NCBI GenBank assembly: GCA_012730105.1
Contig: JAAYBJ010000124.1
Location: 1 to 36,961 of the forward strand
DNA from: Candidatus Hydrogenedentota bacterium
GTDB taxonomy: Bacteria; Hydrogenedentota; Hydrogenedentia; Hydrogenedentales; CAITNO01
Reading direction: 5' to 3'
Length of the DNA stretch: 36,961 bases
This document shows positions 5,531 through 36,961 of the stretch, piece after piece. The notes below the pieces were generated by a model. That model saw only the letters and a program-made list of their open reading frames with translations, was not told where the DNA came from and searched no databases. Every line of letters starts with the position of its first letter. The stretch's first letter is position 1. A program made the position numbers and the translations under genes.

Positions 5531-5580
5531 GTCTGACGGAGTCTGACCTTGTCCGACGCTGTCTGACCGGTCTGACATTG
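5531..5580 (-). repeat. GTC-R-GAC tandem array 1 (five units)
   Basis: On the plus strand five heptamers GTCTGAC or GTCCGAC start at 5531, 5541, 5551, 5561 and 5570, so the period is 10, 10, 10 and 9. On the minus strand each reads GTCAGAC or GTCGGAC, the same purine-centred unit seen at 29755, 32018 and 32768. The array begins 14 bases beyond the stop of the minus-strand SpoU gene, and lies 23 bases from the stop of the convergent GH5 gene. Confidence 0.85.
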
Positions 5581-22153: not shown

Positions 22154-22189
22154 GTCCTACACGTCCTACCGGTCTTACACGTCCTACAT
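22154..22189 (+). repeat. 9-bp tandem array GTCCTAC-NN (four units)
   Basis: GTCCTAC, GTCCTAC, GTCTTAC and GTCCTAC start at 22154, 22163, 22172 and 22181, each followed by two variable bases, so the period is exactly 9. The array starts 38 bases after the stop of the toroid gene. An inverted copy of nine bases (CGGTAGGAC at 22216-22224) lies about 45 bases on. A six-base stem (GTCTAT / ATAGAC, about 22127-22142) precedes the array. It resembles the GTC-R-GAC arrays in style but has a different core and period. Confidence 0.75.
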
Positions 22190-29754: not shown

Positions 29755-29784
29755 GTCGGACACTGTCAGACCAAGTTGGACAAC
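29755..29784 (+). repeat. GTC-R-GAC tandem array 2 (three units)
   Basis: GTCGGAC, GTCAGAC and GTTGGAC start at 29755, 29765 and 29775, so the period is 10. It starts 28 bases after the stop of the NHL gene and ends 34 bases before the GH116 ATG. The third unit differs at one base of the core. Confidence 0.8.
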
Positions 29785-32017: not shown

Positions 32018-32077
32018 GTCGGACTCCGTCAGACAGGGTCGGACAAGGTCGGACGAGGTCGGACAGGGTCGGACGAA
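32018..32077 (+). repeat. GTC-R-GAC tandem array 3 (six units)
   Basis: Six consecutive units start at 32018, 32028, 32038, 32048, 32058 and 32068 with an exact period of 10: GTCGGAC five times and GTCAGAC once, with three variable bases between. It starts 18 bases after the GH116 stop. The four-helix-bundle gene's promoter is 40 bases further on. Confidence 0.9.
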
Positions 32078-32119
32078 AAGCATGGGCGTGGCGGTAACAG
32101 TTACAGATGCACCATGTTG

Positions 32120-32148
32120 TTGTAGGATCTGTTATTTTTGGTTATACT
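32120..32148 (+). promoter_or_regulatory. Candidate sigma-70 promoter for the four-helix-bundle gene
   Basis: TTGTAG (32120-32125) and TATACT (32143-32148) are 17 bases apart. The -10 agrees with the consensus at five of six bases. Transcription would start near 32155, about 12 bases before the ATG at 32167. Its presence means the gene does not depend on the upstream GH116 transcript. Confidence 0.5.
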
Positions 32149-32166
32149 GTGATTCATGGAGGGTTC

Positions 32167-32865
32167 ATGACACGGGACGACACGCCTTTTATGCCCCATG
32201 GCGGGTACCGCAAGTTGCGGAGCTATACCGTGGCCCAGGCGGTATATGACGCAACGGTGGTGTTTTGCCGCCGCTTTTATGCCCATGACAAGCGGATGAC
32301 AGACCAGATGGTTCAGGCGGCACGAAGTGGGGTGCGCAACATCAGCGAGGGCAGCGGCGCAGCGGCAACATCACGCAAGGCGGAAATGAAATTGACAAAC
32401 GTGGCGCTGGCTAGCCTGAACGATGAACTGATCCCTGACTTTGAGAGTTATCTGCTGCAGCAGGGGTTACGCGTCTGGCCAAAAGAGTCCAGGGAGGCGC
32501 GTGTTGTCCGGGAGCGCCTGCAGCATGATCGCATCGAGAATCTGCCCCCGCCTCCGCGGGGCGGAGTGCGGCTGACGGGCTTGGCGGACCTGGCGGATTT
32601 CGTGGGCAAAGCCGACGCTGAAATTGCGGCCAATACCCTGCTCTGTGCCACGCATCAGGCCTGCTACCTGCTCCGTCGCCAAGTGAAAAGCCAAGGCCGT
32701 ACCTTTGTGGAGGAGGGCGGTTTCTCGGAGAACCTGTATAAGAAACGGCTTCAGGCGCGCGGGCAGGGTCGGACGAAGTCGGACCACGTCGGACAGGGTC
32801 GGACAGCGTCAGACAGGGTCGGACAGCGTCAGACGAAATCGGACAAGAAGGATGACGTTCCCTGA
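32167..32865 (+). CDS. Four-helix-bundle protein (23S rRNA intervening-sequence protein family) with suffix domain
   Basis: The 232-residue protein begins with a four-helix bundle of the 23S rRNA IVS-protein/Avd-like family: YRKLRSYTVAQAVYDATVVF (14-33), DQMVQAARSGVRNISEGSG (46-64) and AEMKLTNVALASLNDELIPD (72-91). The NISEGSG string and the spacing fit that family. Residues about 92-195 form a second, less known helical suffix region. From residue 199 the protein is a low-complexity tail GQGRTKSDHV, GQGRTASDRV, GQRQTKSDKK, a 10-residue repeat that is the translation of array 4 (period 10 bases, 30-base super-period). The ATG at 32167 follows GGAGGG by three bases; an ATG at 32191 is the alternative. 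Family members bind nucleic acid, including Avd of diversity-generating retroelements; a role with the repeats is inference. Confidence 0.8.
   Translation: MTRDDTPFMPHGGYRKLRSYTVAQAVYDATVVFCRRFYAHDKRMTDQMVQAARSGVRNISEGSGAAATSRKAEMKLTNVALASLNDELIPDFESYLLQQGLRVWPKESREARVVRERLQHDRIENLPPPPRGGVRLTGLADLADFVGKADAEIAANTLLCATHQACYLLRRQVKSQGRTFVEEGGFSENLYKKRLQARGQGRTKSDHVGQGRTASDRVGQRQTKSDKKDDVP
32768..32847 (+). repeat. GTC-R-GAC tandem array 4 (eight units), inside a gene's 3' end
   Basis: Eight units start at 32768 and every ten bases to 32838: GTCGGAC five times, GTCAGAC twice and a final ATCGGAC. The array is in open frame with no stop in the 32167-32865 gene and gives its C-terminal repeats. With array 3 it brackets that gene. 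Confidence 0.9.
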
Positions 32866-32977: not shown

Positions 32978-35830
32978 TCAGGACCGTTTGCGCCGCGCCA
33001 GCAATCCCAGTGCGCCTCCAGCCGCAGCCAGTACGATCAGGCCGAGCATACCCATAGCCGGGATTTCTTCCACCACCGTTACCTGCGCTTCAAACACCTG
33101 GACGGCCTTGGCGCCGTCATCATAGGTGCAGGAATACAGGCCGGAATCACTCGTTGTCAGCAGCGCGATCTGCAAGGTGCGCGCATTGGCGCCAATGATG
33201 CGGCCGCCGTTCGAGAGTGGGACGCCATCTTTTGTCCATGCATAGGTGGAACTGGCGGCAACAGGGCATGGCACGCACAGGCACAAATCGCTGCCGATCT
33301 CATAATCGCCGCCCAAGGGTCTCGGACAGCCTTCCGGATTTTCAATGCATGCTTCTTCGCCTTCAGTTGGCAGTTCGCCTTCGACGGGCAGTTCACCCTC
33401 ACCTTCAACCGGCGGTTCGCCTTCGGCGGGGGGCTCGCCTTCGACGGGCGGTTCACCTTCGCCTTCGACAGGCGGTTCCCCCTCGCCTTCGATCGGCGGC
33501 TCACCCTCGCCTTCGACGGGCGGTTCGCCTTCACCTTCAATGGGCCCTTCATAAAGCGCTAGGTCTTCACCCGGTTCAGGCACGACGTCGGCGGGCACCA
33601 CCGCCAGCGCGGCGTCCAGGGCGTTCAAGTTGTCATTCATGGCTTGCAGGCCCAGCGTGGCAGCAAAAATGAGCACATCCGCGACACCGTCCGGAGCTCC
33701 TTGCCACGGCACCATCCCATCCGGCACAAGTATGTCCGCGGGGTCGGCGGGGGGATTCCCAAAATTCGGGATAATCTGCGCCACGGAAAACAGGGGCAGG
33801 CCGCTCTTGTCCACAAAGAGCGCATCCAGATCGTTATCCGCGGGAATTCCCAGGAAGCCGCTGGATCCATTGACAAGTAGACCGTCGGAAGCCAACGCAA
33901 CGCGGAAAAACCCGGTTCCGTCCGGGGTCAAAATATCCGCAGCCGTGGCGCCCGCCATGGCCAGGGAAGGGGACCCCTTGGCCAGCGAAAAGAACAAATC
34001 GCCAGGCTGCAAATATTGGCTTGGAAGTAGATTCAGCCTGTCAATCAAAGGCGCGCGAAGGTCAAGCCCGTTCAGGTCATCATTGGGCGCGAGCACCAGG
34101 AGTCCCAGTTCCGACTCATCGGCCGCCAGCGCATTGGAACCCATATTGCCGGAGGACGTGACGAAGATGTCGCCGAAGGCTTCCGGCAGTTGTGTTACCG
34201 GCTGCCCGCAGGTGGCCGTACCCACGGCAACCTCGTTACTGACGGCCGTGCCGGGCATTCCCTGTGTGGGCCAATCAACGGAGAAATGCCAGAAAATAGG
34301 ACGCATCAGACTATCGTACAAGCCGTCTTCAATGATGGCTACGGCAATATCGCTGGTAGGATAGGAAAAGGCGTCAATGTCGTCCATCGACTGCAAACCG
34401 AGCAGCCGATGCCGCAGCCGCATCAGGTTGGTGCAGCCGCCCGCCTTGTAAACATCGTTACGCGGGTCGCTATCGCCGTCCAGGGGACTGTTGATATCCG
34501 TTCCCGGAAGGCCAATGCCGGTCATCTTTACCGAGAGGTTGATCCCCTGCTCTGTTTCTCCTTCAGGCTCGCCTTCACCCTCCGGTTCGCCCTCCGGTTC
34601 CCCTTCGATGGGAGGCTCGCCTTCTCCCTCTCCGGGGGTCTCGCCCTCCCATGGCTGTTCACCTTCACCCTCTACCGGCGGTTCTCCTTCGGGAAACTGG
34701 ACATCCAGGCAAACGTGGCAGATGTCGCCTTCTATCACCACATTCGTGCCCATGACATCAATGGAGACCCATTCCGGGTTAAAGTCTATAATTTGAAACA
34801 GGACCGTTTGGGTTACGGGTTCCGTTAAATCCTGGCCCACGAAAATGGGTTCCCGGACAATCCAGTCTGCTTCGTCTTCCGGGGAAATCGGGGGAATCGG
34901 CGGTACCCCGGTGCCGGGAGGGTAGTCCGGTGAACTATAATTGATGGCCACGGTGGCATCGGCACCTACGTCCGTGGGCGTGATGTTGAAGGTTACCATG
35001 ACGTTTTTTGCGCGCGTCAGGTCCAGTACCCCATCATAATACCATTCATTCCACCATTCCGTGTTCGGGTAGTAGTAAAAGGTGCCTCCATCATGGCCGG
35101 TGCCGCCGCCCTCGATCATCCAGCCTGTGGCATCAAAGGTGATGTTGAATACATCACAATGGTCCCAGCCGTCTTCTCCCTGGTGCGCCCTTACGGTGCC
35201 TGTAGTTACCCCTGAATACCCAGAAAGGGGGCTTCCGGGGGCGCCTGTAAATTCGATTCTATAGGTTATATCAAAAAAGCTGTCCACATTCCATCGGCCG
35301 TCAGGCAATTGCGTAAGTGTGGTGTGACCCGGAGAGGGCAAGCCGAATTCATTACCCGCGCTTAGCTCCAGTAAATCAAAATCGGGGTCGCCCATCAAGG
35401 TACCCGAAAGTTGCTGGAGTTCACACGGGAAAGATTGTATCTTTTCCCCGGGGATACGGGGCGCCAAGTTCATGACCAGGGAAACGGGAAACATAATGTC
35501 GCGCGAATATCCGGTCAAGGCGCCTGTACCCGTCATCTGAAGACGCATGTCGGCAGTACACGTAATGACCTCGCCGCCCAGGGGACCGCCGATTTCGACA
35601 AATACGTCGAAGAAACTTTCCACCCAGAAGTCGGATTCAAGGGTCGTGCCCGGCGGCAGGCCATCAATAATGTCCAGCGTGCCGCCTTCGTTCACATAAG
35701 GACAGTTCGCCGGCAGGCTCACGGTCCCTCCTCCATTGTCCGGCGCCACGCAGCGCTCGGCCCCCGCCATAGGCGCCAGGCAGAGGGCTGCTGCAATGAG
35801 TATGACTTTAACCTCTAGTGCTGCCTTCAT
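32978..35830 (-). CDS. Large secreted PEGEG-linker protein with Ig-like domain and IPTL-type C-terminal anchor
   Basis: The 950-residue product has a signal peptide (1-24, ending MAGA). Domain order is: N-terminal beta-rich region 25-370, PEGEG-repeat linker about 377-428, a middle domain about 430-755 with Asp-rich turns (APNDDLNGLDL, IPADNDLDALFVDK, PDGVADVLIFAATLG), second PEGEG linker about 759-827, Ig-like domain about 830-915 (STYAWTKDGVPLSNGGRI, DSGLYSC), then a C-terminal tail: IPAMGMLGLIVLAAAGGALG and ARRKRS. The motif-TM-basic cluster resembles the IPTL-CTERM sorting signal. The start at 35828-35830 is supported by AAGGAG seven bases upstream; an in-frame ATG at 36028 with GGAGGAG would add 66 residues. 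No catalytic motif is seen, so a binding or surface role is likely. Confidence 0.8.
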   Translation of the reverse strand: MKAALEVKVILIAAALCLAPMAGAERCVAPDNGGGTVSLPANCPYVNEGGTLDIIDGLPPGTTLESDFWVESFFDVFVEIGGPLGGEVITCTADMRLQMTGTGALTGYSRDIMFPVSLVMNLAPRIPGEKIQSFPCELQQLSGTLMGDPDFDLLELSAGNEFGLPSPGHTTLTQLPDGRWNVDSFFDITYRIEFTGAPGSPLSGYSGVTTGTVRAHQGEDGWDHCDVFNITFDATGWMIEGGGTGHDGGTFYYYPNTEWWNEWYYDGVLDLTRAKNVMVTFNITPTDVGADATVAINYSSPDYPPGTGVPPIPPISPEDEADWIVREPIFVGQDLTEPVTQTVLFQIIDFNPEWVSIDVMGTNVVIEGDICHVCLDVQFPEGEPPVEGEGEQPWEGETPGEGEGEPPIEGEPEGEPEGEGEPEGETEQGINLSVKMTGIGLPGTDINSPLDGDSDPRNDVYKAGGCTNLMRLRHRLLGLQSMDDIDAFSYPTSDIAVAIIEDGLYDSLMRPIFWHFSVDWPTQGMPGTAVSNEVAVGTATCGQPVTQLPEAFGDIFVTSSGNMGSNALAADESELGLLVLAPNDDLNGLDLRAPLIDRLNLLPSQYLQPGDLFFSLAKGSPSLAMAGATAADILTPDGTGFFRVALASDGLLVNGSSGFLGIPADNDLDALFVDKSGLPLFSVAQIIPNFGNPPADPADILVPDGMVPWQGAPDGVADVLIFAATLGLQAMNDNLNALDAALAVVPADVVPEPGEDLALYEGPIEGEGEPPVEGEGEPPIEGEGEPPVEGEGEPPVEGEPPAEGEPPVEGEGELPVEGELPTEGEEACIENPEGCPRPLGGDYEIGSDLCLCVPCPVAASSTYAWTKDGVPLSNGGRIIGANARTLQIALLTTSDSGLYSCTYDDGAKAVQVFEAQVTVVEEIPAMGMLGLIVLAAAGGALGLLARRKRS

Positions 35831-36211
35831 TGTTCTACTCCTTCTTAATTTACCCTGTAAATTCATCGGTTTAAATGCCGTTCCCATCAAACTATTTTTT
35901 CTGCACAACACAGGCTTTTTTCGCACTGGTCTATGCTCCTTCTGGTGTGTATTGCTTCCCGCTGAAAGATATTCCTTCCCCCTTGAATCCTCACCTCCCG
36001 CGCCTGAAACGCGTATGCTCGCCGTCATGACAACTCCTCCGCCCGGTTCGCAGCCCTGAAATAGATTCTCTTTTGCCGGGCGATCTTCTTCTCTACGGCT
36101 TCCGGCTCTTCCCCTGCCCCGCATCACACCGAACCCATCAGACGACTATTGTCCCTTATATTTACGCATACTACGCATAATGAATTCATGTTCATCAAAC
36201 TGCATGTTAAC

Positions 36212-36521: not shown

Positions 36522-36961
36522 TTAACGCTTGGAAAATCCGAGCACAACCAACAGGCTTATACTAATCAGTAACCAGTCGCCAAAGACGCGTTCGAGCATA
36601 TCGACGGCCTTGTCATTGTTTTCACAGCTGCCACAGCCGCCACAGCAACCTTCGGGTTCACCTTCGGCAGGCGCTTCACCTTCACCTTCGACGGGCACTT
36701 CACCTTCGCCTTCGGTTTCACCTTCGGCAGGCGTTTCGCCTTCGATTTCGCCTTCAACCGGCACTTCACCTTCACCTTCGGCGGGCGCTTCGCCTTCGGG
36801 TTCACCTTCGACAGGCACTTCGCCCTCGCCTTCGACAGGCACTTCGCCTTCGCCTTCGACGGGAAGTTCGCCTTCACCTTCAATAGGCGCTTCGCCTTCG
36901 ACCGGTACTTCACCTTCACCCTCGGCGGGCACTTCGCCTTCGATTTCGCCTTCAACCGGTA
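36522..36961 (-). CDS. C-terminal part of a secreted PEGEG-repeat protein with a Cys-rich anchor tail (partial)
   Basis: The gene runs off the window edge, and about 145 codons are visible. The first 100 or so residues are Pro/Val-Glu-Gly-Glu low complexity (VPVEGEGE, APAEGEGE, TPAEGETEGE), the same style as the linkers of the 950-residue protein. Then come a cysteine-rich turn (GCCGGCGSCENN), about ten residues, a transmembrane helix (DWLLISISLLVVLGF) and the basic end SKR. A Cys-motif, helix and basic end form a three-part C-terminal anchor that differs from the IPTL-type tail of its neighbour. It recalls MYXO-CTERM-like tails only in outline. The N-terminal, functional part is not in the window. 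Its terminator is at 36469-36498. Confidence 0.75.
   Translation of the reverse strand, partial: PVEGEIEGEVPAEGEGEVPVEGEAPIEGEGELPVEGEGEVPVEGEGEVPVEGEPEGEAPAEGEGEVPVEGEIEGETPAEGETEGEGEVPVEGEGEAPAEGEPEGCCGGCGSCENNDKAVDMLERVFGDWLLISISLLVVLGFSKR

Follow-up and report, generated by a model that had tools for sequence, protein, structure and literature searches.

Does a gene that is bracketed by arrays of a short repeat form one system with these arrays? This question is raised by a stretch of 36,961 nucleotides from a Candidatus Hydrogenedentota bacterium (GenBank assembly GCA_012730105.1, contig JAAYBJ010000124.1; the whole stretch is called the window here), in which the gene of a four-helix bundle protein lies between two arrays of the word GTCRGAC. 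S23-type four-helix bundle proteins that carry the 'suffix' domain TIGR04258 are named FHS here. An earlier note on this DNA had proposed a unit made of a nucleic-acid-binding protein and its own repeat. The pairing at the core of this proposal was strongly supported, far beyond this one locus, whereas binding and spreading are steps that we infer. With slightly more confidence than doubt, we regard the locus as a member of a selfish protein-plus-repeat system that resembles repetitive extragenic palindromic (REP) sequences and their REP-associated tyrosine transposases (RAYT) but is built on a non-transposase, in which FHS would recognise its own array.

As the earlier note described, the gene lies between arrays of six and eight units, both with an exact 10-bp period (Table 1). 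The downstream array consists of seven exact GTCRGAC units and one ATCGGAC, and the open reading frame (ORF) of FHS passes through it in frame to a stop codon at 32865; the second array is indeed translated as C-terminal repeats. That its eight units contain no stop codon is also true. However, this is unremarkable and expected from the composition of the unit, because GTCRGACNNN in this frame allows stops at just two codons per 30 bp. In total, GTCRGAC was counted 23 times in the window, compared to 9.0 in shuffled sequences, and none of 100 shuffles reached 23. The locus is placed between protein-coding genes and not in a 23S rRNA gene, as are the other loci inspected in detail.

To look beyond the window, 185 distinct FHS genes were assembled from public genomes and from the phylum of the window's genome. 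Arrays with a period of 9 or 10 bp were found inside or at most 500 bp from 160 of these genes, compared to 4 of 185 in shuffled sequence. The density of arrays was 1.19 per kb near the FHS gene and 0.085 per kb beyond 1.5 kb (0.014 per kb in shuffled sequence). Most arrays at FHS genes had a period of 9 bp (306/343) and some of 10 bp (28/343). At least nine repeat words, or classes, occur among these genes, whose hosts come from many phyla.

Comparison of the genes established a cognate pairing of word and protein. The repeat word tracks the FHS protein tree rather than the host: on a tree built from the four-helix domain, with the linker omitted, the nine word classes required 20 changes, compared to a mean of 77.8 in 200 label shuffles, none of which came as low. 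All members of the clade that holds the window protein (99% support) have GTCnGAC, and they come from the window's phylum as well as from records whose labels read Verrucomicrobia, Planctomycetota or Lentisphaerae. The tree is based on few columns, many of its forks are weak, and the clustering of word labels could also come from common descent of the gene plus its flanks alone. We favour selection on the words, because they persist at 40-50% protein identity and because synonymous positions are held. Close relatives of FHS were found in other phyla. A relative with 46% identity is present on one viral contig of IMG/VR (L331); with this single contig, viruses were rejected as the main carriers of FHS.

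Codon comparisons likewise established a constraint at the level of the DNA. Judging by these, synonymous codons in the coding linker are fixed so that the DNA word stays. For Tyr, the codon TAT was used 85:4 in the linker compared to 100:87 in the remainder of these genes (p=5e-14); for Arg, AGG was used in 36/39 cases compared to 59/501 elsewhere (p=7e-27). According to the earlier note, common occurrence of the protein without arrays would speak against a joint system. Such genes exist to a mild extent (25 of 185), but 18 of the 25 have a conserved three-repeat linker, typically NRSYxTYxTY, with codon choices that preserve the DNA word. In the genes without a called array, TAT was used 49:4 in the linker compared to 64:54, and AGG in 22/25 compared to 46/300.

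The window's genome encodes eight FHS paralogs, each with a different repeat word: GTCRGAC (10 bp), CnGATCnG, GTCCAC, GTCCAT, GTCCTAT, GTCCTTT, GTCAAT and TCCCAT (mostly 9 bp). Their arrays are located upstream, within the gene (in the linker or at the C-terminus) and downstream. Three-unit GTCRGAC arrays gave 28 matches at about 12 places in this 5.63-Mb genome, while the reversed control pattern gave none. GTCY arrays with a 9-bp period gave 102 matches (79 places) against two for the reversed control, and 68 of the 79 places belong to just four words, for each of which this genome encodes the FHS owner. Eight GTCCTRC places (e.g. C52:5739 and C217:24649) have no identified FHS owner; a missing or fragmentary paralog is predicted for these arrays.

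Co-occurrence of arrays and proteins was established by comparing 68 genomes of the phylum, 42 with and 26 without TIGR04258. The median number of array matches per genome was 69.5 in the FHS-bearing genomes and 1 in those without (Mann-Whitney p=4e-7), and the Fisher odds ratio for arrays versus presence of TIGR04258 was 13.6. This also held for single classes: GTCCGTG arrays were found in all 11 genomes with that protein class compared to 12 of the 57 others (p=9e-7), and GTCAAT arrays in 3/3 compared to 2/65 (p=2e-4). The number of arrays varies strongly between genomes. The idea that genomes with GTCRGAC arrays always encode the protein fails in its strict form for exact 10-bp arrays, since these occur in 5 of the 68 genomes and a protein of the same class was detected only in the window's own. 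Moreover, arrays without the protein, the other observation that the earlier note would have counted against the pairing, occur to a mild extent, in 7 of the 26 protein-negative genomes. One genome (G018) has 34 GTCAAT and 16 GTCRGAC array matches, yet only an FHS fragment at a contig end; its owner FHS was likely lost or unassembled.

The same comparisons established an intergenic dispersal of the arrays and the geometry of their inverted pairs. Only 3 of 28 dispersed arrays were located within long ORFs, compared to 74% of random positions (p=4e-12). Among dispersed arrays there was no preference for a strand or for upstream (divergent) regions. Non-palindromic words tend to form inverted pairs with the GGAC side first and the GTCC side second, in a ratio of 24:3 at FHS loci. 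All twelve dispersed inverted pairs read from the array listings had this order.

The FHS of the window matched TIGR04258 (four helix bundle suffix) with 65.1 bits (cut-off 40) and TIGR02436 with 26.2 bits (cut-off 24); PF05635 was matched with an E-value of 6.9e-5, yet with 23.5 bits below its cut-off of 33.8. All 76 aligned relatives matched PF05635 and TIGR02436 at E<=0.001 and also TIGR04258. A structure predicted from these relatives (mean pLDDT 90.3) was all-helical with a low-confidence repeat tail, and had helices at residues 18-37, 42-65, 70-98, 139-148, 151-183 and 186-205. In a Foldseek search its top match was 2gsc (probability 1.00, TM 0.81 on the target), followed by 2rld, with E-values of only about 0.3-1; both of these nearest solved folds are S23 proteins. 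The TIGR02436 match and the S23-like predicted fold agree with the earlier assignment to the four-helix proteins of the rRNA intervening sequence (IVS) type. The aligned length suggests that the suffix helix 151-183 is probably the fourth helix of the bundle. If the suffix supplies this helix, the variable linker would lie between helices 3 and 4; the region preceding the suffix is the site of the coding arrays in FHS relatives. A C-terminal DNA-binding zinc ribbon of the topoisomerase type is present in 22 of the 76 members, and 12 matched the GRF zinc-ribbon model. Neither the family-model search nor the predicted fold revealed nuclease, HUH Y1 (tyrosine) transposase or reverse transcriptase domains in FHS.

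Table 1. Features of the window (positions counted from its first nucleotide)
Feature	Position	Strand	Basis
Upstream array: six GTCRGAC+NNN units, exact 10-bp period, non-coding	32018-32077	+	sequence
Weak -10-like TATACT (near 32142-32148) and GGAGGG (32158-32163), 5' of ATG 32167	32142-32163	+	sequence
FHS gene, 232 aa, PF05635/TIGR02436 bundle and suffix TIGR04258	32167-32865	+	ORF, family models, predicted structure
Helices 1-3 of the bundle (residues 18-98), including the family's most conserved motif DQMVQAARSG..NI.EG	32218-32460	+	alignment, predicted structure
TIGR04258 suffix (residues 151-198): helix 151-183 and helix 186-205	32617-32760	+	family model, predicted structure
Downstream array: eight units, GTCRGAC word, translated as low-confidence C-terminal tail	32768-32847	+	sequence, predicted structure
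Short GTCRGAC-word array (GTCGGAC, GTCAGAC, GTTGGAC; 10-bp period), 5' of the upstream gene	29755-29781	+	sequence
Dispersed GTCRGAC-word array, five units, without FHS gene	5531-5576	-	sequence
Four-unit array of another word (GTCCTAC/GTCTTAC) with a 9-bp period	22154-22188	+	sequence

The pairing strongly implies that each FHS recognises its own array, and a mechanism can be proposed on this basis. FHS would recognise a specific word of 6-7 bp that recurs every 9-10 bp, close to one turn of the DNA. This word is symmetric itself (GTCnGAC, CnGATCnG, CTATAG) or becomes so when an array is paired with an inverted copy of it. The word differs between FHS lineages, and that of a given lineage occurs around or inside its own gene and is also scattered in intergenic DNA. 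The protein would bind the arrays, probably as double-stranded DNA or as the hairpin that arrays can form, and would promote their amplification and their establishment at new intergenic sites via host replication or repair. The host machinery is invoked since the system itself includes no nuclease domain and no reverse transcriptase. Solved S23p members form a homopentameric, five-fold ring (PMC4990558). We infer that FHS may bind physically, possibly as such a ring, and that it may spread its arrays actively. Going further, a new class of selfish repeats could be envisaged, in which a ring-forming four-helix protein with changeable sequence specificity maintains and multiplies its own short-period arrays without transposase or reverse transcriptase, moves across phyla and has been captured by operons of restriction systems and of clustered regularly interspaced short palindromic repeats (CRISPR), with the S23 proteins of rRNA IVS as relatives; we regard this wider proposal as somewhat less likely than not.

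Several observations weigh against the selfish reading. Some genomes retain arrays although no cognate FHS could be detected in them, and the protein has no DNA-cutting and no DNA-copying domain. The GTCCTTT class is carried at many sites by an ordinary miniature inverted-repeat transposable element (MITE), hence not all dispersal is driven by FHS. FHS genes in CRISPR and restriction operons mostly have only short internal arrays, which fits a less selfish, operon-bound role. Finally, all of the support is comparative.

Alternatively, FHS may act as a sequence-specific regulator or nucleoid organiser. The arrays would then be operators, through which FHS autoregulates its own gene and, where they are dispersed, serves the host, and nothing would be selfish or spreading. 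We consider this unlikely, though deserving of serious weight. The arrays are intergenic and DNA-constrained, their 9-10-bp phasing suits side-by-side binding along one face of the DNA, and some operons of type I-C CRISPR or type I restriction systems include an FHS gene, all in keeping with regulation. In contrast, coding arrays in the linker that separates helices 3 and 4, genomes with as many as eight paralogs that each have another word, close relatives in other phyla and the strongly varying number of arrays fit mobile repeats better, and the dispersed arrays show no preference for upstream (divergent) regions. A role as accessory of defence operons, with the arrays elsewhere as its relics or its control sites, seems improbable to us. 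About a quarter of 80 cross-phylum loci have type I-C cas genes or type I restriction genes next to FHS, and IVP proteins in cas loci were noted in an earlier study (PMC3936711), but most FHS loci, including that of the window, lack adjacent defence genes, and in array-rich genomes the FHS genes mainly stand alone.

It is also improbable, by about the same measure, that the arrays are passive, produced by microsatellite slippage or carried as ordinary MITE cargo, with the FHS gene merely among them. The GTCCTTT class gives this idea its best case: its inverted pairs ride on a MITE about 165 bp long, whose terminal inverted repeats measure 16 bp (CCTAAAAACGGCAGTT), and in several copies the flanks look, from our reading of the alignment, like 5-bp target duplications. 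Among the classes tested, however, dispersed arrays of the other words share no flanking sequence, and MITE cargo was rejected as a general explanation since it holds for GTCCTTT only. Slippage alone was rejected as well, because adjacent units are no more similar than distant ones (21% and 24% identity, respectively) and because the core word is constant but the spacer bases are not. Moreover, the word matches the protein tree across phyla and synonymous codons are fixed. Avd of diversity-generating retroelements (DGRs) is a four-helix bundle of the same superfamily as FHS with a nucleic-acid partner, and FHS might likewise partner a reverse transcriptase that copies the arrays. This is very improbable. 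The reverse transcriptase family RVT_1 was found in only 30 of the 68 phylum genomes and was absent from many FHS genomes rich in arrays, among them G014 (96% complete), G003, G031, G040, G058 and G064, and no reverse transcriptase was among the recurrent neighbours of FHS genes; such a partner was therefore rejected. Unlike Avd, FHS has no adjacent or genome-wide obligate reverse transcriptase and no pair of template and variable repeats.

The closest functional analogue of the proposed selfish system is REP/REPIN with RAYT (PMC2817692, PMC3116915). There, too, the gene is flanked by its own repeats, the repeats are dispersed, extragenic and palindromic or in inverted pairs, their abundance correlates with the cognate gene, and several gene-repeat families occur per genome. 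However, FHS is all-helical, of the S23 type and without a HUH/tyrosine transposase domain, its words of 6-7 bp recur with a 9-10-bp period whereas REPs are palindromes of 20-40 bp with a GTAG head, and its arrays also lie inside the coding region. Since transposase and REP repeat architecture are absent, FHS is not a member of REP/RAYT. The S23/IVP proteins of 23S rRNA IVS (Coxiella, Leptospira; PMC4990558) share the PF05635 superfamily and an ORF flanked by inverted complementary sequence; FHS differs in its position outside rRNA genes, the suffix domain, the long linker with coding arrays, the frequent zinc ribbon and the word-specific dispersed arrays. CRISPR arrays differ as well, with repeats of about 23-47 nucleotides and unique spacers of similar length, compared to an FHS unit of 9-10 bp with 2-3 free bases.

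In agreement with the earlier note, no described system with such a pairing of word and protein was found in the literature searched, although unpublished work, subscription-only papers or remarks of NCBIfam curators may contain one. The same search yielded no papers on 'four helix bundle suffix' or TIGR04258; the latter ('4helix_suffix') is a family name only, without a link to cognate arrays. Within this literature, the pairing of a four-helix protein with matching repeat arrays points to a system that has not been described. The S23/IVP element of 23S rRNA IVS is a suspected selfish element of unknown function, although structures of its proteins have been solved since 2006 (PMC4990558). 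The arrays name a candidate ligand for these proteins, with dozens of protein lineages in many phyla, each with a readable word. The function of FHS thereby becomes directly testable, and the natural set of protein-word pairs can be used to study sequence reading by a four-helix bundle. Should the arrays spread, the system would multiply its repeats with no transposase of its own; otherwise, FHS would make up a large and new family of proteins that bind arrays, in some cases within CRISPR-Cas and restriction operons.

In these operons FHS has recurrent positions. In 10-odd loci its neighbours are cas genes of type I-C, and in most of these it is placed between cas7 and cas4 (L051, L064, L067, L070, L073, L079, L105 and L114), and this position is conserved in unrelated genomes. 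Another 10-odd loci have FHS with type I restriction genes; it lies inside the restriction-modification operon in L061, L063, L069, L083, L088 and L111, often between hsdS and hsdR with overlapping ends. IVP proteins have been noted in cas loci before, often with Cas4 (PMC3936711, PMC10910872), and the available parts of these two papers make no mention of array association or word specificity. In the window's genome, the paralog with the GATC word (CnGATCnG) adjoins hsdM, and this hsdM (L002, 2-1300, minus strand) bears an in-frame array of the GATCGG type; its translation, RGDRSDRSHRSDPSDP, lies in a loop that is absent from solved homologs.

At the window's locus, translation of FHS likely starts at ATG 32167, preceded by the Shine-Dalgarno-like GGAGGG. 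The promoter proposed earlier (TTGTAG-17-TATACT at 32120-32148) is weak: it matches 8 of 12 consensus bases, and a consensus-based scan of this region found no promoter at its threshold. Comparison with relatives did not yield a clean empty site, but array size and gene presence vary. In two genomes of the same genus (G008, G009), only a two-unit GTCGGAC array comes after the homologous upstream gene and FHS is absent; in two of the same family (G005, G006), both the array and FHS are missing there. The downstream genes differ at the homologous locus of all four.

Of the other features, the GTCCTTT MITE is present in about 20 or more copies in the window's genome, several of them at contig ends (L149, L281, L282, L284-L287 and L289). 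The GTCCTAC array of the window (22154-22188) coincides exactly with the end of 91% identity to a same-genus genome, in which the next 2.1 kb are absent and only a degenerate array is found. The proteins encoded at 32978-36127 and 36522-36961 (minus strand) contain long degenerate GEGEPPVEGE repeats and are related to many other stretches of the genome.
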